A DNA stretch of 64,000 bases. Source: Aequorivita aurantiaca (GTDB taxonomy: Bacteria > Bacteroidota > Bacteroidia > Flavobacteriales > Flavobacteriaceae). A model generated the notes under the pieces. That model did not search any database, was not told the origin of the DNA, and saw only the letters and a program-made list of their open reading frames with translations. The stretch is taken from positions 186,001 through 250,000 of the forward strand of contig NZ_JAUGQQ010000001.1 in the NCBI RefSeq assembly GCF_030410135.1, given 5' to 3'. The position numbers and the translations under genes were made by a program. Shown here one piece after another: positions 16,701-34,763 of the stretch. Positions within the stretch are counted from its first letter, which is position 1. Each line of letters begins with the position of its first letter.

Positions 16701-16708
16701 TACCTTTG
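16701..16708 (+). promoter_or_regulatory. -7 element (TACCTTTG) for the histidine kinase
   Basis: An exact TANNTTTG match 24 bases before the ATG at 16732. It is the only housekeeping-type promoter sign seen for the kinase-regulator pair. Confidence 0.6.
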
Positions 16709-16731: not shown

Positions 16732-17820
16732 ATGACTTTAGAAAAAAACCTTAAGGAACGGATAAAAGAACTTACTTGTCTATACGAAGTTTCCTCCATT
16801 ATTGTTAACAATGATTATAGAGCCTTGGACAAAACCTTATATTCCATAGCGCTAAGTCTTCGGAAATCCTTGCAATACAGCAAATTCGCCACGGTGGAAA
16901 TAAGCGCCGACCCGTATCATCTCATTTCTTCTACTATTTCAAAAAAAACGGTATTGATTGAAGATGACATCAATGTTTTCAATGAGCCAAAAGGATTCAT
17001 AAAAATTCATTATCCCGCAGACAAATTCTCGAAAAAAGATTTTTTGCCGGAGGAAAAAAAACTGCTGAAAAATGTTGCCATAAATGTTGGCGATTTATTG
17101 GAACGCGCTGCCATTCGGGAAAATGAGGTGGTCATGAAACGCAAAATGGAACACGCCGACCGGTTGAGTATTCTTGGGGAAATTACGGCCGGTATTGCAC
17201 ACGAATTAAACACGCCGCTCGCCAATATTCTTGGCTTTGCCGAGTTGCTGAAAAACAAGGAAACCACCAACACCCAAAACAGCCAAGACCTCGATAAAAT
17301 AATTAACAGTGCCATTTTCTCTCGAGAAGTGGTTAAAAAATTGATGTTCTTTGCCTGTGAGATGCCTCAGAATTTAGGTCAAACAGACATTGTTCCCGTA
17401 ATAAATGACGCCTTAAACCTGTTGGACCCCACCTTCAAAAAAAATGAAATAAATTATAAAGCGAATCTTCCCAAAGTTCCAGTTTTAATGAAGGCCGATA
17501 CTATCCAATTAACACAGGTAATTTTTAATTTGGTGTTGAACGCAATTTATTTTTCACCGAAAAATGGGACGATAAAAATAACACTGGAAGAAACAAAGAA
17601 GAAAATAATTTTGAAAATCGCCGATGAAGGACCGGGCATTTCCGCTGAGAATGTGCAAAAAATATTTCAGCCATTTTTCACTACAAAAACAGTGGGCGAC
17701 GGCTCCGGACTGGGATTGAGCGTGGTTCACGGAATAATTAGAAGCCATCGCGGCACCATAGAATATCAATCGAATAATCCTACGGGAGCCATTTTTATTA
17801 TTACTTTTCCGAAACAATGA
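16732..17820 (+). CDS. Sensor histidine kinase (NtrB-like, soluble)
   Basis: 362 residues from the ATG at 16732 (a TTG five codons earlier is possible). An N-terminal GAF-like region (ELTCLYEVSSIIVN, about 10-120) is followed by a dimerisation helix with the phospho-acceptor His157 in GIAHELNTPLANILG, then the ATPase domain with N box (FNLVLNAIYFS), G1 (DEGPGIS), F box (FQPFFTTK) and G2 (GSGLGLSVVHG). No membrane segment is seen, so it senses a cytoplasmic cue. Its TGA overlaps the ATG of the sigma-54 activator by four bases: the pair is translationally coupled and surely cognate. Confidence 0.93.
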   Translation: MTLEKNLKERIKELTCLYEVSSIIVNNDYRALDKTLYSIALSLRKSLQYSKFATVEISADPYHLISSTISKKTVLIEDDINVFNEPKGFIKIHYPADKFSKKDFLPEEKKLLKNVAINVGDLLERAAIRENEVVMKRKMEHADRLSILGEITAGIAHELNTPLANILGFAELLKNKETTNTQNSQDLDKIINSAIFSREVVKKLMFFACEMPQNLGQTDIVPVINDALNLLDPTFKKNEINYKANLPKVPVLMKADTIQLTQVIFNLVLNAIYFSPKNGTIKITLEETKKKIILKIADEGPGISAENVQKIFQPFFTTKTVGDGSGLGLSVVHGIIRSHRGTIEYQSNNPTGAIFIITFPKQ

Positions 17821-19142
17821 AACCAATGCTACAAAAGGAAAACATATTAATTGTTGATGATGACATAAATATTTTGGAACTCCTCCAGCGCCATTTGCAT
17901 TCTTTGGATTATCACACCTTCAAAGCAATTTCAGTAAAGGAAGCAGTAGCCATTTTACGCGACACGGAAATCGATTTATTGATAACAGACCTAAAAATGC
18001 CCGAAGTGGATGGTTTTCAACTCATCAAATTTGCATCAGAACATTACCCGAAGATGCCAAAATTGGTTGTTACAGGCTATCCTTCCGTTCAGGATGCACT
18101 TTCCGCAATAAAATCTGGAGTTGTGGATTATTTGGTAAAACCTTTTACGAAAGAAGAATTAAAGCAGGGCGTTCTAAAATCACTTTCCACACATTCAAAG
18201 AAAAAACCAAGCAATGTCACTTCAGAAGGGAAAAAATATAACGAAATAATTGGGGAAAGTGAAGCAATCAATAAAGTTATTCAGATAATTGACCGCGTTA
18301 AAGATAACAAAGCTACAATTTTTATTAGCGGCGAAAGCGGCACGGGTAAAGAACTTGTAGCCCGATCCATCCATTACAACGGAAAATATTCACGTGAACC
18401 ATTTATTGCTGTTAACTGCGGTGGAATTCCTGAAAACCTTTTGGAATCAGAGCTTTTTGGTTATGTGAAGGGTGCCTTTACGGGAGCAAACGATTCCCGC
18501 GAAGGTTTGTTTCAAGCAGCTCATGGAGGCACTATTTTTTTGGACGAAATTGGAAACGCCTCTTTGGCCGTCCAATCCAGACTTTTACGGGTCTTGCAGG
18601 AAAAGGAAGTGATGAAAGTGGGCGACAGGAAGACCGAAAAAATTGACGTGCGCGTTATCGCCGCCACCAATAGTAATTTAAAGGAAATGATAGCAAAGGA
18701 AACTTTTCGTGAGGACCTTTTTTATCGATTGACTGTTGTAGAAATCCACGTACCCCCGCTAAGGGAAAGGAAAGATGACATTCCGATGCTATCGGAAAAA
18801 TTTCTCTTCAAATATGGCAAAGAGTACAAAGACAGATACATTACTATCGATCCCGAAGCCCAAGAATTGTTGCAGCGCTATGATTGGCCGGGAAATATTC
18901 GGGAATTGGAAAATGTAATTCAACGGGCCGTAATAATGTGTGACCGGACTATAGGCGTAAATGATTTGCCCGAAACACTTAAATACCGAATCGATTTTCC
19001 CCAAAATGATGAATTGGTATCGCTTAAGGAAATGGAAAAAAAATACATCGAAAAGGTTCTGGCCGCAACGGGCAACAACCAAACCAAGGCTGCAGAAATA
19101 CTCAATATTGACAGAAAGACGCTTCGGGGAAAGTTAAGTTAG
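17817..19142 (+). CDS. Sigma-54-dependent NtrC-type response regulator
   Basis: 441 residues in three domains. Receiver (about 8-122) with phospho-acceptor Asp58 in LLITDLKMP; AAA+ domain with Walker A GESGTGKE at 172-179, the sigma-54 contact loop GAFTGA at 219-224, Walker B GGTIFLDEIG and an Arg finger region REDLFYRL; C-terminal Fis-type helix-turn-helix (NNQTKAAEILNIDRKTLRGKLS). The intact GAFTGA loop says it can open sigma-54 promoters. A -24/-12 promoter stands 251 bases after its stop, which makes the downstream 57-residue gene and glutamate dehydrogenase its likely targets (inference). Confidence 0.95.
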   Translation: MKPMLQKENILIVDDDINILELLQRHLHSLDYHTFKAISVKEAVAILRDTEIDLLITDLKMPEVDGFQLIKFASEHYPKMPKLVVTGYPSVQDALSAIKSGVVDYLVKPFTKEELKQGVLKSLSTHSKKKPSNVTSEGKKYNEIIGESEAINKVIQIIDRVKDNKATIFISGESGTGKELVARSIHYNGKYSREPFIAVNCGGIPENLLESELFGYVKGAFTGANDSREGLFQAAHGGTIFLDEIGNASLAVQSRLLRVLQEKEVMKVGDRKTEKIDVRVIAATNSNLKEMIAKETFREDLFYRLTVVEIHVPPLRERKDDIPMLSEKFLFKYGKEYKDRYITIDPEAQELLQRYDWPGNIRELENVIQRAVIMCDRTIGVNDLPETLKYRIDFPQNDELVSLKEMEKKYIEKVLAATGNNQTKAAEILNIDRKTLRGKLS

Positions 19143-19269
19143 CCCAATCCCTGATTCAAAGTTTGCATTTTCTTAAATAATATAAAAACCGCCATATTAT
19201 TTCGCCGGTTAAAAGTCGCAATTTGATTGTAATCTATACTTTGTACCAATCTCGAATTCAGCATAAAAG

Positions 19270-19305
19270 TGGGGCGTTTCTCCCCATTGTAGAAAATTTG
19301 CCCCA
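19270..19305. promoter_or_regulatory. Possible upstream activator sites for the sigma-54 promoter
   Basis: An interrupted dyad TGGGG-N7-CCCCA (19270-19286) is followed by a third GC block GCCCCA (19300-19305), which also pairs with TGGGGC at 19270. Such GC blocks stand out in AT-rich surroundings. Relative to the expected start at about 19420 they centre near -142 and -117, the usual distance for NtrC-type enhancers. The site sequence itself is not a known consensus. The remainder of the gap 19143-19392 shows nothing else I recognise. Confidence 0.4.
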
Positions 19306-19392
19306 ACCCATCAAATGAGAAAATTTATTACAAAATATTCAATGCTCTATTTTTCAATGACTTAAGTAATTTTATTACTTTATTTATTATAA

Positions 19393-19410
19393 TTGGCACA
19401 CACCTTGCCA
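19393..19410 (+). promoter_or_regulatory. Sigma-54 (-24/-12) promoter
   Basis: TTGGCACACACCTTGCCA matches the consensus TGGCAC-N5-TTGC exactly, with GG at 19395-19396 and GC at 19407-19408, ten bases between them as required. The start of transcription would be near 19420, 17 bases before the ATG of the 57-residue gene. It lies directly downstream of the gene for an NtrC-type activator on the same strand. Confidence 0.88.
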
Positions 19411-19436
19411 AATGTAACTCGCAAACATGAAATTTA

Positions 19437-19610
19437 ATGAACCATCATCCTACAAATCTTTGTCCCGAATGTGCGCACGCTCCCTATTGTGTGATAACGC
19501 ACAATCATTCAGCGGTGCTTTCCTGTAGTGAGTTTGACGAACTACGGCATCGTGCCCCTGAACCCATACTTAAAATAACAAAAAGAGAGCCTGAAATGGC
19601 TACCATTTAA
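19437..19610 (+). CDS. 57-residue cysteine-rich small protein
   Basis: An ATG-to-TAA frame of 58 codons, previously easy to miss because of its size. It starts MNHHPTNLCPECAHAPYCVI and has cysteines at 9, 12, 18 and 30 (CxxC-x5-C-x11-C) plus five His residues in the first 24, then LSCSEFDELR and a basic tail. The pattern fits a zinc-ribbon or small iron-sulfur/rubredoxin-like site. It begins about 17 bases after the predicted sigma-54 transcription start and ends 13 bases before the glutamate dehydrogenase ATG, so both should share one mRNA. A 33-codon frame starting at 19427 overlaps it but has no protein-like features. Function unknown. Confidence 0.75.
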   Translation: MNHHPTNLCPECAHAPYCVITHNHSAVLSCSEFDELRHRAPEPILKITKREPEMATI

Positions 19611-19623
19611 AACAATTATTAAA

Positions 19624-20919
19624 ATGACAAATACACAAACCTTGGAAAAACCACAAGCTGCAAAAAGAGGAATGTTGGACAACGTGCTGGAGCAATTCAA
19701 TAGCGCTGCTGACAAAATTGATCTGAACCCAAACGTTCGCAAAATTTTAAGCATCACAAATACTGAAATAATTATTCACTTTCCGGTTCGAATGGACAAT
19801 GGAAATGTGGAAATTTTTACTGGATACCGTGTGCAGCATAACAACGCACTTGGACCATACAAAGGTGGTCTTCGCTACCATCCAACGGTAGATATTGACG
19901 CTGCCCGTGCCTTGGCAATGTGGATGACATGGAAAACATCACTTGCCGGCTTGCCTTACGGAGGGGCAAAAGGAGGGATACAGATCGACCCTTCAAAATA
20001 TTCAAAAGGTGAATTGGAGCGTATTACCCGTCGGTTCACTTATGCTTTAGGTGAAAATATTGGCCCAGAGCATGATATTCCGGCTCCGGACGTAAACACC
20101 AATGACCAAACCATGGCTTGGATTGCAGATACGTACATGAGTACAAAAAGCACTAGCGAGCGTTCCAAAAATCAACACGTTGTTACCGGAAAACCAGTGG
20201 GCAGCGGAGGATTGGAAGGTCGTGACCGTGCCACTGGGTATGGCGTGTTCTTGACCATTAAATTTTGGGCAGAAAAGAACAACCAAAGCCTAAACGGAAA
20301 AACATTCATCGTGCAAGGTTTCGGCAATGTTGGCTATTGGGCAGCACATTTCCTTGAAAATGAAGGAGCAAAAATGGTTGGGGTCCAAGATGCCTTCGGA
20401 AGTCTACAAAACCAAGAAGGAATTGCCGTGGAGGATCTTTTCAACTACGGAAAGGCAAACAGTGGAAGTATTGTAGGTTTCCCCGAGGCCGAAGCCATGA
20501 ACGGTAAGGAATTTTTCGGCCTGGAGTGCGATATCTGTATTCCAGCAGCTTTGGGCAACCAAATTACCAAAGAAAATGCAAATTCCATAAAGGCAACCCT
20601 TATTGCCGAAGGGGCCAATGGCCCAACAGATGTTGAAGGCGAAAAAATATTGCTAGATCGTGGAGTTACCATTATTCCTGACATTATGTGCAACTCCGGT
20701 GGCGTTATAGGAAGCTATTTCGAATGGCTTCAAAATCGTAACGGAGAGCTTTGGCAGCTGGACGAAATTTTGGAAAAACTAGAGAAAAAACTTCGTTCAA
20801 CCTATAAAAAGGTTACGGCCTATTCCGAAGAAAAGGGAATTGACATGCGAACCGCTGCTTTTGCAATTGCAATTGAAAGAATTGAAAAAGCCTATGTTCT
20901 TAGAGGTATTTTCCCATAA
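19624..20919 (+). CDS. Glutamate dehydrogenase (Glu/Leu/Phe/Val family, NAD-type)
   Basis: 431 residues. It interconverts glutamate and 2-oxoglutarate plus ammonia. Seen: the substrate region [11 protein letters not shown] and the catalytic-Lys loop LPYGGAKGGIQIDP, the mid-chain PVGSGGLEGRDRATGYG, and the Rossmann motif GFGNVGYWAAHFL ending in Asp, which suits NAD or dual use. The sequence is of the short hexameric type (RocG/GudB and archaeal enzymes), unlike the E. coli-type NADP enzyme at 33306. Thirteen bases after the small cysteine-rich gene and behind the sigma-54 promoter, so probably made under control of the adjacent two-component system. Confidence 0.95.
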   Translation: MTNTQTLEKPQAAKRGMLDNVLEQFNSAADKIDLNPNVRKILSITNTEIIIHFPVRMDNGNVEIFTGYRVQHNNALGPYKGGLRYHPTVDIDAARALAMWMTWKTSLAGLPYGGAKGGIQIDPSKYSKGELERITRRFTYALGENIGPEHDIPAPDVNTNDQTMAWIADTYMSTKSTSERSKNQHVVTGKPVGSGGLEGRDRATGYGVFLTIKFWAEKNNQSLNGKTFIVQGFGNVGYWAAHFLENEGAKMVGVQDAFGSLQNQEGIAVEDLFNYGKANSGSIVGFPEAEAMNGKEFFGLECDICIPAALGNQITKENANSIKATLIAEGANGPTDVEGEKILLDRGVTIIPDIMCNSGGVIGSYFEWLQNRNGELWQLDEILEKLEKKLRSTYKKVTAYSEEKGIDMRTAAFAIAIERIEKAYVLRGIFP

Positions 20920-20934
20920 TTAATTTGAATCCAC

Positions 20935-20987
20935 AAAGATGGAACATCGCTCCCAAACTCTTGAAGCGGTACCGATGTTCCATCTTT
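20935..20987 (+). terminator. Long perfect hairpin between glutamate dehydrogenase and the Rnk-like gene
   Basis: Fifteen bases at 20935-20949 (AAAGATGGAACATCG) pair perfectly with 20973-20987 around a 23-base loop. It starts 15 bases after the dehydrogenase stop and ends 21 bases before the next ATG. No T run follows (ATTAAC), so it may reduce read-through, protect the upstream mRNA end or regulate the next gene rather than fully terminate. Confidence 0.6.
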
Positions 20988-21008
20988 ATTAACAATGAAA
21001 CGAGAACC

Positions 21009-21425
21009 ATGAAATATGGAAATTTGATATTAGAGAAAAAAGAGTACGTTTTTTTAAAGCGCCTACTCAATGTTACAGGTTATTATAAAGATGAAAACAC
21101 TAAGGTTTCCCTCAAAAAACTGAGCGCGGAACTTACCAGTGCTATCATTTATGACCACGAGGAAATGCCTGCAGATATAATCCGCTTTAATAGCGTTGTA
21201 ACGGTGCAATCCGGAACTTGGGAAACAGAATTCCAGTTGGTCATTCCAACGGAGCGCGACATTGCGGCGAACAAAATTTCAATTTTAGCGCCCATGGGTT
21301 CCGCCGTTATGGGTTATGCCGAAGGTGATTCCGTAATATGGAATTTCCCCAACGGCACCAAGGAATTAAAAATTACAAGTGTAAAGCAATCGGAAAGACC
21401 GATTGACATTGATGTACTATCATAA
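21009..21425 (+). CDS. GreA/GreB-family, Rnk-like factor
   Basis: 138 residues from the ATG at 21009; the frame is open upstream to 20925, but that part covers the hairpin and is not family-like. The C-terminal GreA/GreB FKBP-like fold is recognisable: NSVVTVQSGTWETEFQLVIP, then ISILAPMGSAVMGYAEGDSVIW and the closing LKITSV. The N-terminal part is a short helical segment, not the full Gre coiled coil, which resembles Rnk (regulator of nucleoside diphosphate kinase) proteins that contact RNA polymerase. Follows glutamate dehydrogenase on the same strand. Confidence 0.82.
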   Translation: MKYGNLILEKKEYVFLKRLLNVTGYYKDENTKVSLKKLSAELTSAIIYDHEEMPADIIRFNSVVTVQSGTWETEFQLVIPTERDIAANKISILAPMGSAVMGYAEGDSVIWNFPNGTKELKITSVKQSERPIDIDVLS

Positions 21426-21454
21426 CTTTCGCACTACAAAAACTATTTAAAATC

Positions 21455-21835
21455 ATGAAGATTTACGATCACGATTCGCCAGAGGCAATAACTTTTAAAA
21501 ACAGTTCCATTGAATTGGACAATTGGATTGAACATCTTAATTATATTGAAAAGGAAATAGAAAATTTATTGAATCTTGGAAAAAAGGAACTTTCCAAAGC
21601 ATTTGATTCTGAAAATGTATTGCAGAAACTGGCCGAAGAAAAGGAAAGCAATACTGCCACGATCGATGCTTTTTTAAAATATAAGGAAAGTTTGCCAAAA
21701 GCCGCAGAGTGTGAAGACGCCGACTGCGATATGTTTTACATAACCGAACACGAAAGATTTCGAAAAAGCTATTCGGCACATTTAAAAAAATACCGAGAGG
21801 TGAAAGAGGAATATTTCAATATCCTCAGCAAATAG
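21455..21835 (+). CDS. Coiled-coil protein, unknown function
   Basis: 126 residues, strongly helical and charged. Heptad-like stretches run from IELDNWIEHLNYIEKEIENLL to the middle and again in HERFRKSYSAHLKKYREVKEEYF; a short acidic Cys-containing loop (CEDADCDMF) lies between them. No signal peptide or membrane segment. Starts 29 bases after the Rnk-like gene and ends 31 bases before the transhydrogenase, so it belongs to the same run. I do not recognise a family. Confidence 0.65.
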   Translation: MKIYDHDSPEAITFKNSSIELDNWIEHLNYIEKEIENLLNLGKKELSKAFDSENVLQKLAEEKESNTATIDAFLKYKESLPKAAECEDADCDMFYITEHERFRKSYSAHLKKYREVKEEYFNILSK

Positions 21836-21866
21836 TAAATATAAGAAATTCGATTTTCAAAAAAAT

Positions 21867-23000
21867 ATGAGCGAACAGCCACAGCCCAAGACAATAGGAA
21901 TCCTTAAAACCCCAAACGATCCGAGGGTTTGTTTGTTACCCAAGGAAGTTAAAAAACTCACCGGGGAGTTAGCGCTCAATATTCTATTCGAGCCGGGGCT
22001 GGGCAGTTCGCTAGATATTGACGACGCCCAATATATACAGGCAGGCGCACTGCCAAAGTCCCGGGAAGAAATCTCTAAAAATTCGGATACCATTGTATCC
22101 ATTAATCATACTTTTAGCGAAGTGGAAATGAAGGGGGGTTGTTGCTTCATTGGTATTTTCAACCCCCTCTTTCATGATTCCAAATTCGCTATATATCAAA
22201 AGAACAACGCTACTGTTTATAGTTTGGACCTACTTCCGCGCACTACTTTAGCGCAATCTATGGATGTGCTCTCTTCCATGGCTTCGCTTGCAGGTTATAG
22301 AGCCGTTATAAAAGCCGCGGAAATTTACAACGGCGTTTTCCCGATGTTTACAACAGCAGCCGGCACACTTACTCCCGTAAAAATATTGGTTTTGGGAGCT
22401 GGAGTGGCAGGTTTGCAGGCCATTGCCACTGCCCGCCGTCTGGGTGCGGTTGTAGAAGCTTTTGATGTTCGAAAATCTGCCGGAGAAGAAGTCCGCAGTC
22501 TTGGCGCAACATTTATTGAAGTGGAAGGTTATGCCGAATCTGCCAATGCCGGTGGCTACGCAGTGGAACAAAGCGAAACCTACCAAAAAAAGCAGAAAGA
22601 GCTGATCCACAATCATATTCTATCCGCAAACATTGTTATTAGTACCGCAAATATTCCGGGACGTAAAGCACCGCTACTGATTGAAACACGCTCTGTAGAA
22701 AGCATGCAACCCGGCAGCGTAATTGTTGATTTGGCCGCTGAACAGGGTGGAAATTGCGAACTTTCAAAAAACAAACAAATTATAAATCACAATGGGGTTA
22801 CCATTTTGGGAAATTCAACACTTTCTGCTGAAATTCCTGCCGCCGCCTCAAAATTGTTGTCCAACAATTTTTTCTCCTTTTTAAAATACAAACAAAAGGC
22901 AGAAGCCCAAGACAATGATCCATTGTTAAGCGCTTCCAAAATAATGGACAATGGCGAATGGACGCACCCACATTTCATCAAACAACTACAACCAGCATAA
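21867..23000 (+). CDS. pntAA: Proton-translocating NAD(P) transhydrogenase, NAD-binding subunit (alpha 1)
   Basis: 377 residues forming domain I, which binds NAD(H) at the cytoplasmic face. Seen: the N-terminal KTIGILKTPNDPRVCLLPKEVKKL with the family's Arg, the DLLPRTTLAQSMDVLSSM block (Arg and Gln contacts for nicotinamide), the Rossmann motif GAGVAGLQAIATARRLGA followed by AFDVR, and the AEIPAAASKLLSNN end. The three-gene split (alpha 1, alpha 2, beta) is common in bacteria. The complex exchanges hydride between NADH and NADP driven by the proton gradient. Three bases separate it from the next subunit. Confidence 0.95.
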   Translation: MSEQPQPKTIGILKTPNDPRVCLLPKEVKKLTGELALNILFEPGLGSSLDIDDAQYIQAGALPKSREEISKNSDTIVSINHTFSEVEMKGGCCFIGIFNPLFHDSKFAIYQKNNATVYSLDLLPRTTLAQSMDVLSSMASLAGYRAVIKAAEIYNGVFPMFTTAAGTLTPVKILVLGAGVAGLQAIATARRLGAVVEAFDVRKSAGEEVRSLGATFIEVEGYAESANAGGYAVEQSETYQKKQKELIHNHILSANIVISTANIPGRKAPLLIETRSVESMQPGSVIVDLAAEQGGNCELSKNKQIINHNGVTILGNSTLSAEIPAAASKLLSNNFFSFLKYKQKAEAQDNDPLLSASKIMDNGEWTHPHFIKQLQPA

Positions 23001-23003
23001 CTT

Positions 23004-23300
23004 ATGGATTTTATAAATCTACACATCCAAGAAATTTATTTTGTCATTTTCTGCGTTTTCATCGGTATTGAAGTAATTGCCAATGTTCCCGCCATTTTAC
23101 ATACCCCGCTTATGAGCGGCGCCAATGCTATTAGCGGCGTTATTTTGGTGGGTGCCATTATTGTGATGCTCCGGGTTCCGGCCGATGATTACCTAAATCT
23201 TACTTTGGGAGGAATTGCAGTTTTTTTGGGCACGCTCAATATATCCGGCGGATTTTTCGTAACAGGAAGAATGCTTAAAATGTTCAGTCCGAAAAAATAA
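23004..23300 (+). CDS. pntAB: NAD(P) transhydrogenase, short membrane subunit (alpha 2)
   Basis: 98 residues with three membrane helices (about 8-30, 36-54 and 60-90) and the conserved loop IPAILHTPLMSGANAISG seen here as VPAILHTPLMSGANAISG. It supplies part of the proton channel of the transhydrogenase. Three bases after alpha 1; 126 bases, including a large hairpin, separate it from the beta subunit. Confidence 0.95.
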   Translation: MDFINLHIQEIYFVIFCVFIGIEVIANVPAILHTPLMSGANAISGVILVGAIIVMLRVPADDYLNLTLGGIAVFLGTLNISGGFFVTGRMLKMFSPKK

Positions 23301-23331
23301 TTTCCCAGTATATTCTATTCACTCAATTCCT

Positions 23332-23386
23332 AAAGACGAAAAACATAAGGTTCCTCACATAAAAATACCCTTATGTTTTAGTCTTT
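23332..23386 (+). terminator. Terminator-like hairpin inside the transhydrogenase operon
   Basis: Bases 23332-23350 (AAAGAC-GA-AAAACATAAGG) pair with 23369-23386 (CCTTATGTTTTAGTCTTT) with one small bulge, and the right arm runs into a T tract. By structure it is an intrinsic terminator, yet it lies between pntAB and pntB. It may be an attenuator that sets subunit ratio, or mark a processing site. Confidence 0.65.
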
Positions 23387-23426
23387 TTTAATTTCCTTTT
23401 TATCCAAAAACCAACAACTTAAAATA

Positions 23427-24815
23427 ATGCATGCAATCATCGAAATAGGTTATCTAATTGCCACGCTATCCTTTTTGGGAGGACTGAAGTTTATGAGTTC
23501 TCCAAAAAATGCAAAAACGGGAAATTTAATAGCGGCAATGGGAATGGTTCTGGCCGTAGTGCTCACATTCATTGCCGCGGTGAGTGCCACAGTTCCATAT
23601 ATAAATTTGATTATTATGCTGCTGGCTATTGCCATAGGGACAGTGATCGGAAAAAGAGTTTCCGATAAAGTGGAAATGACCGGAATGCCACAATTGGTTT
23701 CTCTCTTCAACGCAACCGGTGGTGGCTGCGCGATGCTGTTAGGTTTGGTTGAGGCCAACCAAATGGAGCTGGCAACCGTTATTCTCGGAAACCAAATTTT
23801 GCTGATTGCCGGATTGGTTACTGGCGCCGTAGCCTTAACCGGAAGTATTATTGCCGAACGAAAATTAGCGGGAAAAGTAAAAGACAGACGTAGCAAAACC
23901 GTTATCATTTCCGCACGGTTACTTTTGGGATTGCTGTTTTTATTGCCAGTGCTTTATTTTTTCGGCATCATTCCTATCGGTTTCACTGCATTTATGTACG
24001 TTCTATCCTTAATCGCAATGATTTATGGGGTACTCTTTGTTTTGCCCATTGGCGGGGCGGACATGCCGGTGGTAATTTCACTTTTAAACAGTATAACGGG
24101 AATTGCTACGGCTTTTGCGGGCTTCGTGTATGGAAACAAAGCCATGATAGCAGGTGGTATTTTTGTGGGCGCTGCGGGAATTTTGCTTACACTTTTAATG
24201 TGTAAGGCTATGAACCGTTCCTTGATGAAAGTGCTTGCGGGAACTTTTAAAAAGAGCAAAAATGGACAGGTGGAGGAAGAGCAGGAAATAAAGGAAATCA
24301 GCATTTCTGAAACGGCCTTATCGCTATCTTTTGCGCAAAAAGTGGCCATTGTACCGGGTTATGGCCTGGCAGTAGCACAAGCGCAGCATATTTGTGGGCA
24401 ACTTCAGCAACTTTTGGAAAAACGAAATGTGGAAGTAAACTATATCATCCATCCCGTGGCAGGCCGTATGCCCGGACATATGAATGTTTTGCTTGCCGAA
24501 GCAAATGTGGATTATTCCCGACTAAAAGAAATGGAAGAGGGCAACGAAAATATGGCCCAATATGATACCGTTTTGGTAATCGGAGCCAATGATGTGGTTA
24601 ATCCGGCCGCCGAAAATAATCCTGACAGCCCGGTTTATGGAATGCCGATTATCCGTACCCATGAAAGCAAACAGGTAATTGTAATGAAACGAAGTATGGG
24701 AAAAGGATATGCCGGAGTTCAAAATGATCTTTTTGGTTTGGACAATTGCAGCATACTTTTTGGCGATGCAAAATCATCTTTACTGGAAATTGTAAACCAG
24801 TTAAAGCTAATTTAA
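23427..24815 (+). CDS. pntB: NAD(P) transhydrogenase, beta subunit
   Basis: 462 residues: an N-terminal membrane part of eight or nine helices (to about residue 265) and a soluble NADP-binding domain III. Seen: the channel segment LFNATGGGCAMLLG, IGGADMPVVISLLNS with the family's Asn, and in domain III VPGYGLAVAQAQH, GRMPGHMNVLLAEA, IGANDVVNPAA and KRSMGKGYAGVQNDLF, all typical NADP contacts. Completes the enzyme encoded by the two preceding genes. No promoter is evident in the 126-base gap, but the hairpin there suggests separate control. Confidence 0.96.
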   Translation: MHAIIEIGYLIATLSFLGGLKFMSSPKNAKTGNLIAAMGMVLAVVLTFIAAVSATVPYINLIIMLLAIAIGTVIGKRVSDKVEMTGMPQLVSLFNATGGGCAMLLGLVEANQMELATVILGNQILLIAGLVTGAVALTGSIIAERKLAGKVKDRRSKTVIISARLLLGLLFLLPVLYFFGIIPIGFTAFMYVLSLIAMIYGVLFVLPIGGADMPVVISLLNSITGIATAFAGFVYGNKAMIAGGIFVGAAGILLTLLMCKAMNRSLMKVLAGTFKKSKNGQVEEEQEIKEISISETALSLSFAQKVAIVPGYGLAVAQAQHICGQLQQLLEKRNVEVNYIIHPVAGRMPGHMNVLLAEANVDYSRLKEMEEGNENMAQYDTVLVIGANDVVNPAAENNPDSPVYGMPIIRTHESKQVIVMKRSMGKGYAGVQNDLFGLDNCSILFGDAKSSLLEIVNQLKLI

Positions 24816-25083: not shown

Positions 25084-27105
25084 ATGGACACTATCCTCCA
25101 CGAACTTTCAGAACATTTTCAGCTTCCGTTCCACAATCCGGTTCTGATTTTTTCAATAATACTTTTTATCATTCTATTAGCGCCGGTGTTATTAAATAGA
25201 ATTCGGATACCCGGAATTATTGGGTTGATTGTATCCGGAATTATTATTGGTCCCGAAGGTTTCAACATTTTGGAAAAAAGTCTTTTTGTTGATGTTTTCT
25301 CGACTATCGGCCTTTTGTATATTATGTTTATTGCAGGGTTGGAACTCGACTTAAACGAGTTTAAGGCAACCAAAAATAAAAGTATCATTTTTGGTCTTTT
25401 AACTTTTTCGATTCCCTTGGGTATCGGTTTTCCAGTATGTTATTACATATTGGATTTCAATTTTAATGCAAGTCTACTCACTGCCAGTATGTTTGCCACA
25501 CATACCCTTGTTACCTATCCAATTGTCAGCAAGTTGGGAGTTTCAAAAAATATAGCGGTGGCCATAACCGTGGGAGGTACAATACTGACGGATACCGCGG
25601 TGCTGATACTGTTGGCCGTAATTTTAGGATCGCATAGTGGCGGGCTTACCCAGGAATTCTGGATCCGTTTGGGCATTTCACTTCTGTTGTTTTCCGCATT
25701 TATGTTTTTTATTATTCCAAAAATCGCGAAATGGTTTTTCCGAACACTCGAAAGTGAGAAACATTCGCACTATATTTTTGTACTGTCCGTGGTATTTTTT
25801 TCCGCCTTTTTGGCGGAGTTGGCTGGATTGGAATCTATCATTGGTGCGTTCGTTGCAGGTTTGGCACTGAATAAACTCATCCCCCATTCATCGGCATTGA
25901 TGAATCGAATTGAATTTATCGGCAATTCACTCTTCATCCCCTTTTTTTTAATAAGCGTAGGAATGGTGGTTGATGTAAAGGTTATTTTAAGTGGCCCAAT
26001 GGCTATAATTATAGCGGGCACCTTAACCATAGTTGCCATCACCGGCAAATGGACGGCGGCTTGGATAACGCAATTGATTTTTGGCTTTTCAAGAGGCCAG
26101 CGAAAACTGATTTTTGGTTTAAGTAGCGCTCATGCTGCGGCTACCTTGGCCGTAATTTTGGTTGGTTATAATGCGGGAATTTTGAGTGCCAATATTTTAA
26201 ATGGCACTGTTGTCTTGATACTTATTACATGCATTGTGGCTTCCTTCGCCACTGAAAGCGCTTCAAAAATTATAATTCGGGATATGGACGAAAATGAGGA
26301 AACGCTGACAATTACCGGCAATACCGAACAAATTCTCATCCCGATTGCAAACATGACCAATATTGAAAAAATATTAGAGTTTGCAATTTTAATAAAGGAT
26401 AAAAAATCCGCAATGCCACTTTCTCTTTTAACCGTAGTTCCAAACACTCTGGAAGCCGAGAAAAATATAATGAAGGCAAAATTGGAACTTGAAAAATTTA
26501 TAAAAGAAACCACCGCTTCCGAAACCGATGCCACCATTATGGCGACCATAGACTACAACGCTGCCAGCGGCATATCCCGAACCGCGAAGGAAATAATGGC
26601 CGATCTCATTTTATTGGGATGGCCACAAAAAACGGGATTTCTGGATAAATTGATTGGAGACAAAATGGAAAGTATCCTCGAAAATACAGAAAAAACATTG
26701 TTTATCTGCCAGTTCGAGAATCCGCTCATAAACCATAAAAGATTGTTCGTTATCGTCCCGCCAATTGCAGAGTTTGAAGAAGGCTTCGAAATGTGGCTCA
26801 ATAAATTGGCCAAACTTGCCATTGAAATTTCAATCCCGATTACCCTCAATTGCACTGATGACACCCACAAAGCCATATTAAGGTTTTTTAAAACCCAAAA
26901 ACTAAGTTTGAACATTCAATTTAACCGTTTTTATGAATGGGAAGATTTTCTTATTCTTTCCCGTCAATTTTTGGATACAGATTTAATAGTGCTTGTATCT
27001 TCCCGAAAAGGATACGTTTCCCATTTTGGACAATTGGATAGAATTCCCGCCAAATTGGAAAAGCATTTTCCAGCAATTAGCAAAATGGTATTTTATCCAC
27101 GATAG
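25084..27105 (+). CDS. CPA2-family cation/proton antiporter with C-terminal USP-like domains
   Basis: 673 residues. The first ~390 form a 12-13 helix Na+/H+ exchanger domain of the monovalent cation:proton antiporter-2 type, with LELDLNEF early, GGTILTDTAVLILLAVILG and the GAFVAGLALNKLIP and FFLISVGMVVD signatures. The remaining ~280 are soluble and look like two tandem universal-stress-protein-like folds (EQILIPIANMTNIEKILEFA; KRLFVIVPPIAEFEEGFE), which in relatives bind nucleotides. The preceding 268-base gap holds AT-rich sequence with no promoter I can name. Substrate ion unknown. Confidence 0.9.
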   Translation: MDTILHELSEHFQLPFHNPVLIFSIILFIILLAPVLLNRIRIPGIIGLIVSGIIIGPEGFNILEKSLFVDVFSTIGLLYIMFIAGLELDLNEFKATKNKSIIFGLLTFSIPLGIGFPVCYYILDFNFNASLLTASMFATHTLVTYPIVSKLGVSKNIAVAITVGGTILTDTAVLILLAVILGSHSGGLTQEFWIRLGISLLLFSAFMFFIIPKIAKWFFRTLESEKHSHYIFVLSVVFFSAFLAELAGLESIIGAFVAGLALNKLIPHSSALMNRIEFIGNSLFIPFFLISVGMVVDVKVILSGPMAIIIAGTLTIVAITGKWTAAWITQLIFGFSRGQRKLIFGLSSAHAAATLAVILVGYNAGILSANILNGTVVLILITCIVASFATESASKIIIRDMDENEETLTITGNTEQILIPIANMTNIEKILEFAILIKDKKSAMPLSLLTVVPNTLEAEKNIMKAKLELEKFIKETTASETDATIMATIDYNAASGISRTAKEIMADLILLGWPQKTGFLDKLIGDKMESILENTEKTLFICQFENPLINHKRLFVIVPPIAEFEEGFEMWLNKLAKLAIEISIPITLNCTDDTHKAILRFFKTQKLSLNIQFNRFYEWEDFLILSRQFLDTDLIVLVSSRKGYVSHFGQLDRIPAKLEKHFPAISKMVFYPR

Positions 27106-33305: not shown

Positions 33306-34763
<1,458 letters not shown>

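Follow-up and report, generated by a model that had tools for sequence, protein, structure and literature searches.

A candidate two-component sigma-54 circuit with a conserved enhancer-promoter module ahead of a glutamate dehydrogenase operon in Aequorivita aurantiaca and other Flavobacteriaceae

What controls the glutamate dehydrogenase operon of Aequorivita aurantiaca, and to which signal does it answer? The question is raised by a 64,000-nucleotide stretch of contig NZ_JAUGQQ010000001.1 (G000:C11:186001-250000, in a 3.09-Mb genome), here called the window. It carries a sensor histidine kinase (HK) and an NtrC-family activator, for which EBP is used throughout this paper, followed by genes for a 57-residue cysteine protein (CxxC57), glutamate dehydrogenase (GDH), an Rnk/GreA-like factor, a 126-residue helical protein (CC126) and the three transhydrogenase subunits (pntA1, pntA2 and pntB). 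The initial annotation had read these genes as a self-contained sigma-54 circuit driven by a nitrogen or redox signal, and every gene it cited was recovered where it had been placed, all on the + strand. The genome contains one rpoN gene and ten PF00158 matches, five of which are strong sigma-54 activators, and among named relatives, Aequorivita species are closest to it (EBP identity 84-90%). Based on comparison with relatives, the kinase and the activator very probably constitute a dedicated two-component sigma-54 circuit, working through an enhancer and a promoter of fixed geometry.

For this comparison, 77 named loci were considered, of which 70 are orthologs (EBP identity at least 64%) and seven were excluded as non-orthologs (identity at most 45%; L122-L126, L129 and L130). 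L121, whose contig stops within EBP, was dropped from the downstream counts, and the other 69 loci plus the window make up the 70 loci referred to below; gene counts based on clusters of open reading frames (ORFs) include L121 and have a denominator of 71. The putative -24/-12 promoter, TGGCACACACCTTGC (TGGCAC-N5-TTGC, 19394-19408), means little as a pattern alone, so that the comparison across loci decides its significance. With up to two mismatches, the bare pattern occurs 26 times in the window against 30.9 expected from shuffles, and exact TGGCAY-N5-TTGC occurs 7 times genome-wide against 5 for the reversed control. This lack of enrichment speaks against the site, and it would suit a chance match in an operon driven by an ordinary TAnnTTTG promoter. 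Across the loci, however, the expected 70-nt stretch (100-170 nt past the enhancer start) contains the loose form [TAG]GGYAY-N5-TTG in 70 of 70 cases, whereas 86 of 7000 dinucleotide shuffles contain it; for the strict form TGGCAY-N5-TTGC, the figures are 55 of 70 loci and 11 of 7000 shuffles. Among the 70 sites, 64 start with TGG, 62 contain TTGC and 40 distinct spacers occur, and the sites keep a fixed phase to the enhancer. TAnnTTTG is absent from the + strand of 19143-19436, as is TANNTTTG, the element that had been named as the refuting alternative. A chance match is thus very improbable, and the consensus promoter proposed by the initial annotation gains its significance from conservation. 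A transcript start near 19420 would be expected from its position.

Every promoter is preceded by a 36-bp element (consensus TGGnnCATTTTTnCCCAnnTGGGnAATTnTnnCCCA) that had escaped the initial annotation and that is a candidate EBP-binding element, or enhancer. Symmetry within its 36 bp is centered at positions 8.0, 17.5 and 27.0, which describes two dyads and an overall two-fold axis. The sites were originally picked as the best of each region; in a leave-out test, which drops sequences at least 75% alike, no other site in the 1.6-kb region scored above the enhancer in any of the 70 loci, and in 68 it outscored all 50 dinucleotide shuffles. The window enhancer scored 31.6 in this test, and the highest of 50 shuffles of the same region 14.6. 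In 67 loci, enhancer and promoter are 122-128 bp apart, and in the other three the spacing is 135-136 bp, longer by about one helical turn; for L103, a site at +11 replaced the best-scoring second site at +662 in the distance, symmetry and leave-out analyses. Where extra DNA is present behind EBP, it sits 5' of the enhancer and leaves the module intact, which suggests that enhancer and promoter act as one unit. Some results detract from the element: the enhancers of L118 and L105 fail to beat every shuffle, L086, L108 and L114 have weak ones, and that of the window ranks 40th among the 70. As a separate observation, L073, L084, L087 and L090 carry several hundred to ~1400 bp extra between EBP and enhancer, with some opposite-strand ORFs.

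A model of the enhancer-promoter module (R1, 143 positions) was built from 66 of the 70 loci (L084, L085, L109 and L117 omitted). In the window genome it finds one strong site (68.1 bits; runner-up 18.4), which fits the description of the circuit as self-contained; the second-best matches, including L132, were partial and unconvincing. Among 149 sampled family genomes, 33 (roughly a fifth) have an EBP ortholog, defined in this test by at least 60% identity, and R1 at E ≤ 1e-4 matched 34 genomes, namely 33 of 33 with the ortholog and 1 of 116 without it (G093). The match lies within ~1.4 kb behind EBP in 31 of the 33, and elsewhere in G011 and G144. When 397 family genomes, those 33 included, were searched at E ≤ 1e-5, 92 were matched, and 56 of the 59 further genomes checked carry an EBP ortholog. 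The matches in the three genomes without one (G626, G608 and G759) were rejected as partial (model positions 34-142, 38-138 and 61-139) and lacking the enhancer. The positives are weakened by being partly circular, as the 66 training loci overlap the genomes searched; this circularity does not touch the negatives or the extra targets. The G093 match (L183, G093:C29:119991-120138), in a genome with no EBP ortholog, stands 5' of two tandem copies of a 99-residue ORF and another activator, and was accordingly excluded from the regulon; this enhancer-like site may serve a paralogous circuit as its promoter. In a sample of 395 genomes of the phylum, searched with a cut at E 1e-105, EBP matches of at least 54% identity were confined to this family (nine genomes including that of the window, four of them at 54-58%), and the best match outside the family reached 46%.

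As judged from sequence, the pair belongs to the two-component sigma-54 (NtrC-superfamily) type, with activator domains, an adjoining kinase, a promoter with enhancer, and rpoN. EBP has a GAFTGA motif (18471-18488) and TDLKMP as its phospho-acceptor motif, its reading frame overlaps that of HK by 4 bp, and HK is immediately 5' of EBP in 70 of 70 loci. The two genes may have a promoter of their own, TACCTTTG at 16701; of the 70 loci, 33 have a TAnnTTTG element within 150 nt 5' of HK, whereas 7 of 52 have one 5' of CxxC57, and no TTG is found at the expected distance upstream of TACCTTTG. HK probably has no membrane helix, none being evident in its sequence or predicted structure, in agreement with the soluble kinase of the initial annotation. 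Its N-terminal domain of ~125 residues is alpha/beta and GAF-like by eye, and is modeled as helices around four strands, a reduced alpha/beta fold (predicted local distance difference test, pLDDT, ~90); GAF_3 touched just 2 of 47 HK orthologs, in weak matches (best E 0.041). Residue C16 is invariant across the 47 aligned orthologs, and for this reason redox sensing by the kinase is still conceivable.

In NtrB-NtrC systems, a distant enhancer serves a -24/-12 promoter, and glutamate metabolism is among the targets. The window circuit is similar in its kinase, its REC-AAA-HTH_8 activator, its distant candidate enhancer, its -24/-12 promoter and its link to glutamate metabolism, but EBP falls below the NtrC equivalog cut-offs (TIGR01818, 409.9 bits vs 558.6; NF008176, 334.2 vs 620), domain searches give no PAS match in the kinase, and stress genes are among the targets. 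ZraS-ZraR and AtoS-AtoC are also close: ZraS (9jfj) is the top match to the kinase core, and EBP is near the AtoC (NF008469, 410.4 bits) and ZraR (NF007689, 383.4 bits) models. These scores are far under the respective cut-offs of 714 and 760, however, and no membrane sensor part is evident here. The targets of ZraS-ZraR and AtoS-AtoC are unrelated to those of the window circuit.

Which genes this circuit controls can be approached through gene order. When the same strand downstream of EBP was searched by tblastn, 66 of the 70 loci had GDH, 68 the Rnk/GreA-like gene, 62 the helical protein and 53 the CxxC protein; ORF clusters gave 66, 68, 63 and 54, respectively. The four loci without a downstream GDH (L086, L111, L118 and L115) are exceptions to the proposed linkage, and the contig of L115 stops 429 nt past EBP. 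The order EBP-promoter-GDH-Rnk is, in these sequences, conserved over the EBP-bearing loci of the family. The gene order proposed at the outset therefore holds for this core, whereas the transhydrogenase is a lineage-specific operon part outside it: pntA1, pntA2 and pntB lie directly in the operon solely in the Aequorivita-type loci (18 of 18; L054-L069, L097 and the window). The transhydrogenase is still counted as a target because its pairing with a site recurs in varied arrangements, which would be hard to explain by position alone. In Ulvibacter litoralis (L070/G063), pntA1 starts ~8 kb before the EBP end and has its own R1 site (29.0 bits), and pnt operons have such a site in G659 (37.5 bits) and in G654 (28.8 bits, directly upstream of HK-EBP). 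The site in G021, being weak (24.7 bits, E 8.8e-5), detracts from this pairing. With operon membership in the Aequorivita-type loci and separate sites in these four other genomes, the co-control of transhydrogenase suggested by the initial annotation is supported at the sequence level.

Within the operon, a single transcript likely spans all genes, as far as their arrangement indicates. Alternatively, only CxxC57 and GDH might be under the sigma-54 promoter, with the Rnk-like gene, the helical protein and pnt read mainly from other promoters and the transhydrogenase link being positional. Two hairpins, a strong one past GDH and a terminator-like one ahead of pntB, could cut off the post-GDH genes or pntB from the promoter, and this difficulty, like the restriction of pnt in the operon to Aequorivita-type loci, would fit such a division. 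However, the GDH hairpin of the window has no T run, and four of the 18 Aequorivita-type loci have a pntA2-pntB gap of just 6 nt, without the hairpin. In these 18, CC126 and pntA1 are separated by -4 to 41 nt and pntA1 and pntA2 by 2-3 nt; together with the sites of pnt elsewhere, these gaps make the division doubtful. Also in the pntA2-pntB gap, a palindromic stretch of ~125 nt (23301-23426) may be a small inserted repeat.

The signal is best approached through further targets in relatives. Besides the genome searches, sites were sought in the window plus 52 loci, that being all 69 others except the 17 of Aequorivita type, and 20 + 23 site rows were inspected, which include same-species duplicates and some main sites. 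Behind secondary sites, Usp was found in G129, G607 and G758, helical protein-Usp-MscS in G001 and G616, Usp-MscS in G764, and MscS followed by Usp-like pieces in G101. In G073, a Dps-like ferritin comes first, with pirin, NhaA and MscS further along, and in G641 an SDR-like gene (by eye), with Dps and Usp later. A site before NhaA in G029 is weak (24.7 bits). The site of G144 precedes c19-Rnk-HPP, that of G030 Rnk, and those of several genomes the c19 protein, whose family is not known. L077, L083, L086 and L118 have a site before a membrane protein (weakly similar to a four-helix sensor module) that precedes HK, the sites in L086 and L118 reaching 21-22 bits. In G011, the CxxC-GDH-Rnk-helical-Usp operon and its site are on a different contig from EBP, and a 280-residue Usp protein occurs in 20 loci. 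No glutamine synthetase, GlnB/GlnK or ammonium transporter was recognised among these targets, with several unnamed ORFs unscanned.

The occurrence of Usp, Dps, MscS, NhaA and HPP behind such sites favors a stress or redox regulon over a nitrogen circuit. An NtrB-NtrC-like circuit in which the pair reads nitrogen status and governs glutamate metabolism would draw on the 409.9 bits of EBP against the NtrC model and on GDH downstream of EBP in 66 of 70 loci. Yet EBP stays short of 558.6 bits, the targets recognised in relatives are the five just named and pirin, nitrogen genes are missing from those recognised, and a second, NADP-specific GDH is encoded at 33306-34751 on the - strand, ~8.5 kb past the operon (774.9 bits, cut-off 536). 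A nitrogen circuit is accordingly unlikely, and of the signal first proposed, the nitrogen half is not borne out and the redox half may hold. The GDH of the operon, whose closest solved structures we take to be Thermotoga-type and Thermus-type entries, presumably prefers NAD and runs toward glutamate oxidation.

The regulon as a whole may be a Flavobacteriaceae-specific sigma-54 stress regulon, a proposal to which we lean slightly. Through a single pair and one enhancer-promoter module, Usp, Dps, MscS, NhaA and an Rnk-like polymerase factor would be tied to the oxidation of glutamate and the provision of NADPH. Two conserved cysteine proteins might act as effectors for redox state or metals, and Aequorivita would have compressed this set to one operon. 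The stress interpretation is weakened by resting on the gene content of relatives, in part on genes several positions past a site, and genes distant from a site may lie outside its control. A narrower reading takes the circuit to answer osmotic or ion stress, with GDH tuning the glutamate pool as an osmolyte. MscS, NhaA and Usp behind sites in relatives agree with it, as does a gene after the window operon for a CPA2 antiporter carrying Usp as its C-terminal domain (25084-27105). The antiporter gene itself lacks a strong site, though, the site with NhaA first is weak, and Dps, pirin, Rnk and transhydrogenase suit redox or energy stress equally; the osmotic reading is possible but less likely than not.

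A mechanism can be proposed for the two-component circuit. Its parts, their order and conservation, the enhancer phasing and the co-occurrence of site and EBP are given by sequence, and from them we infer phosphorylation, binding, looping, transcription, flux direction and cue as follows. The kinase would sense a cytoplasmic cue and phosphorylate EBP, which as oligomers would bind the two dyads at 19270-19305. A loop over ~90 bp would then allow sigma-54 polymerase to form an open complex at 19394-19408. The transcript would provide the CxxC protein, the small-type GDH, the Rnk-like polymerase factor and the helical cysteine protein, plus the transhydrogenase in Aequorivita. As a net effect, glutamate would be converted to 2-oxoglutarate, yielding NADH, which the transhydrogenase would convert to NADPH. 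Since the module of relatives precedes Usp, Dps, MscS, NhaA and HPP, the likeliest cue is a stress (energy, redox or ion), not nitrogen supply.

Searches of open-access papers gave no description of this circuit, and the papers searched say little about the targets of Bacteroidota sigma-54 activators. In the available part of one survey, COG0334 (GDH) is among the sigma-54-regulated groups in Bacillota, and the targets given for Flavobacteriia are others than GDH (PMC12316311). The Bacillota case shares with the window a GDH under sigma-54, but it concerns another phylum, and that part of the survey mentions no transhydrogenase, CxxC or Rnk partner (PMC12316311). The component types of the circuit are known, and its regulon, enhancer and distribution are apparently new. 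By themselves, promoter patterns give a noisy signal in Bacteroidota, as witnessed by the unenriched pattern in the window genome; an enhancer of fixed geometry, taken together with activator and targets, makes part of the RpoN regulon readable straight from genomes. One flavobacterial switch would join stress genes to the oxidation of glutamate and to NADPH supply, and attention is drawn to two unnamed protein families.

Table 1. Predicted features of the HK-EBP unit and the operon behind it, in window coordinates.
Feature	Position	Strand	Basis or remark
TACCTTTG, possible housekeeping TAnnTTTG-type element for the HK-EBP unit	16701..16708	+	weak
Sensor histidine kinase (HK)	16732..17820	+	HisKA 43 bits, HATPase_c 94 bits; probably cytoplasmic
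NtrC-family response regulator/sigma-54 activator (EBP)	17817..19142	+	REC, Sigma54_activat 237 bits, HTH_8
Candidate enhancer (upstream activating sequence) TGGGGCGTTTCTCCCCATTGTAGAAAATTTGCCCCA, two dyads 19 bp apart	19270..19305	+	leave-out test
Putative -24/-12 sigma-54 promoter TGGCACACACCTTGC	19394..19408	+	consensus fit and conservation
CxxC57, 57 aa, C-x2-C-x5-C-x11-C, no known family	19437..19610	+	
Glutamate dehydrogenase (GDH), small type	19624..20919	+	family and structure matches
Hairpin between GDH and Rnk, 15-bp stem, no T run	20935..20987	+	possible processing or attenuation site
Rnk/GreA-C-like RNA polymerase-binding protein	21009..21425	+	GreA_GreB 70 bits
CC126, 126 aa, three helices in the model, conserved CEDxxCD and HE	21455..21835	+	pLDDT 90.5
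pntA1, transhydrogenase NAD-binding subunit	21867..23000	+	
pntA2, transhydrogenase membrane subunit	23004..23300	+	
Terminator-like hairpin, 11-bp stem then AGTCTTTTTT, pntA2-pntB gap	23340..23379	+	
pntB, transhydrogenase NADP-binding subunit	23427..24815	+	sole PNTB match in genome

Further details concern the smaller products. The four cysteines of CxxC57 are invariant among 54 aligned members, and the Rnk-like protein reaches 84 bits against the nucleoside diphosphate kinase regulator model, under its cut-off of 109. A fold search with CC126 gave 0 matches at E ≤ 0.001; a second helical paralog is present in many relatives, and 36 loci have a member without CEDxxCD. Between CxxC57 and GDH, several relatives (L071, 12050-12330; L073, 12586-12865; L075, L079, L081 and others) carry ORFs of 40-54 residues with similar ends, e.g., ERSIxNRxFK or SPYRFxNRR; these were not seen in Aequorivita loci, where the gap between the two genes is 11-14 nt.

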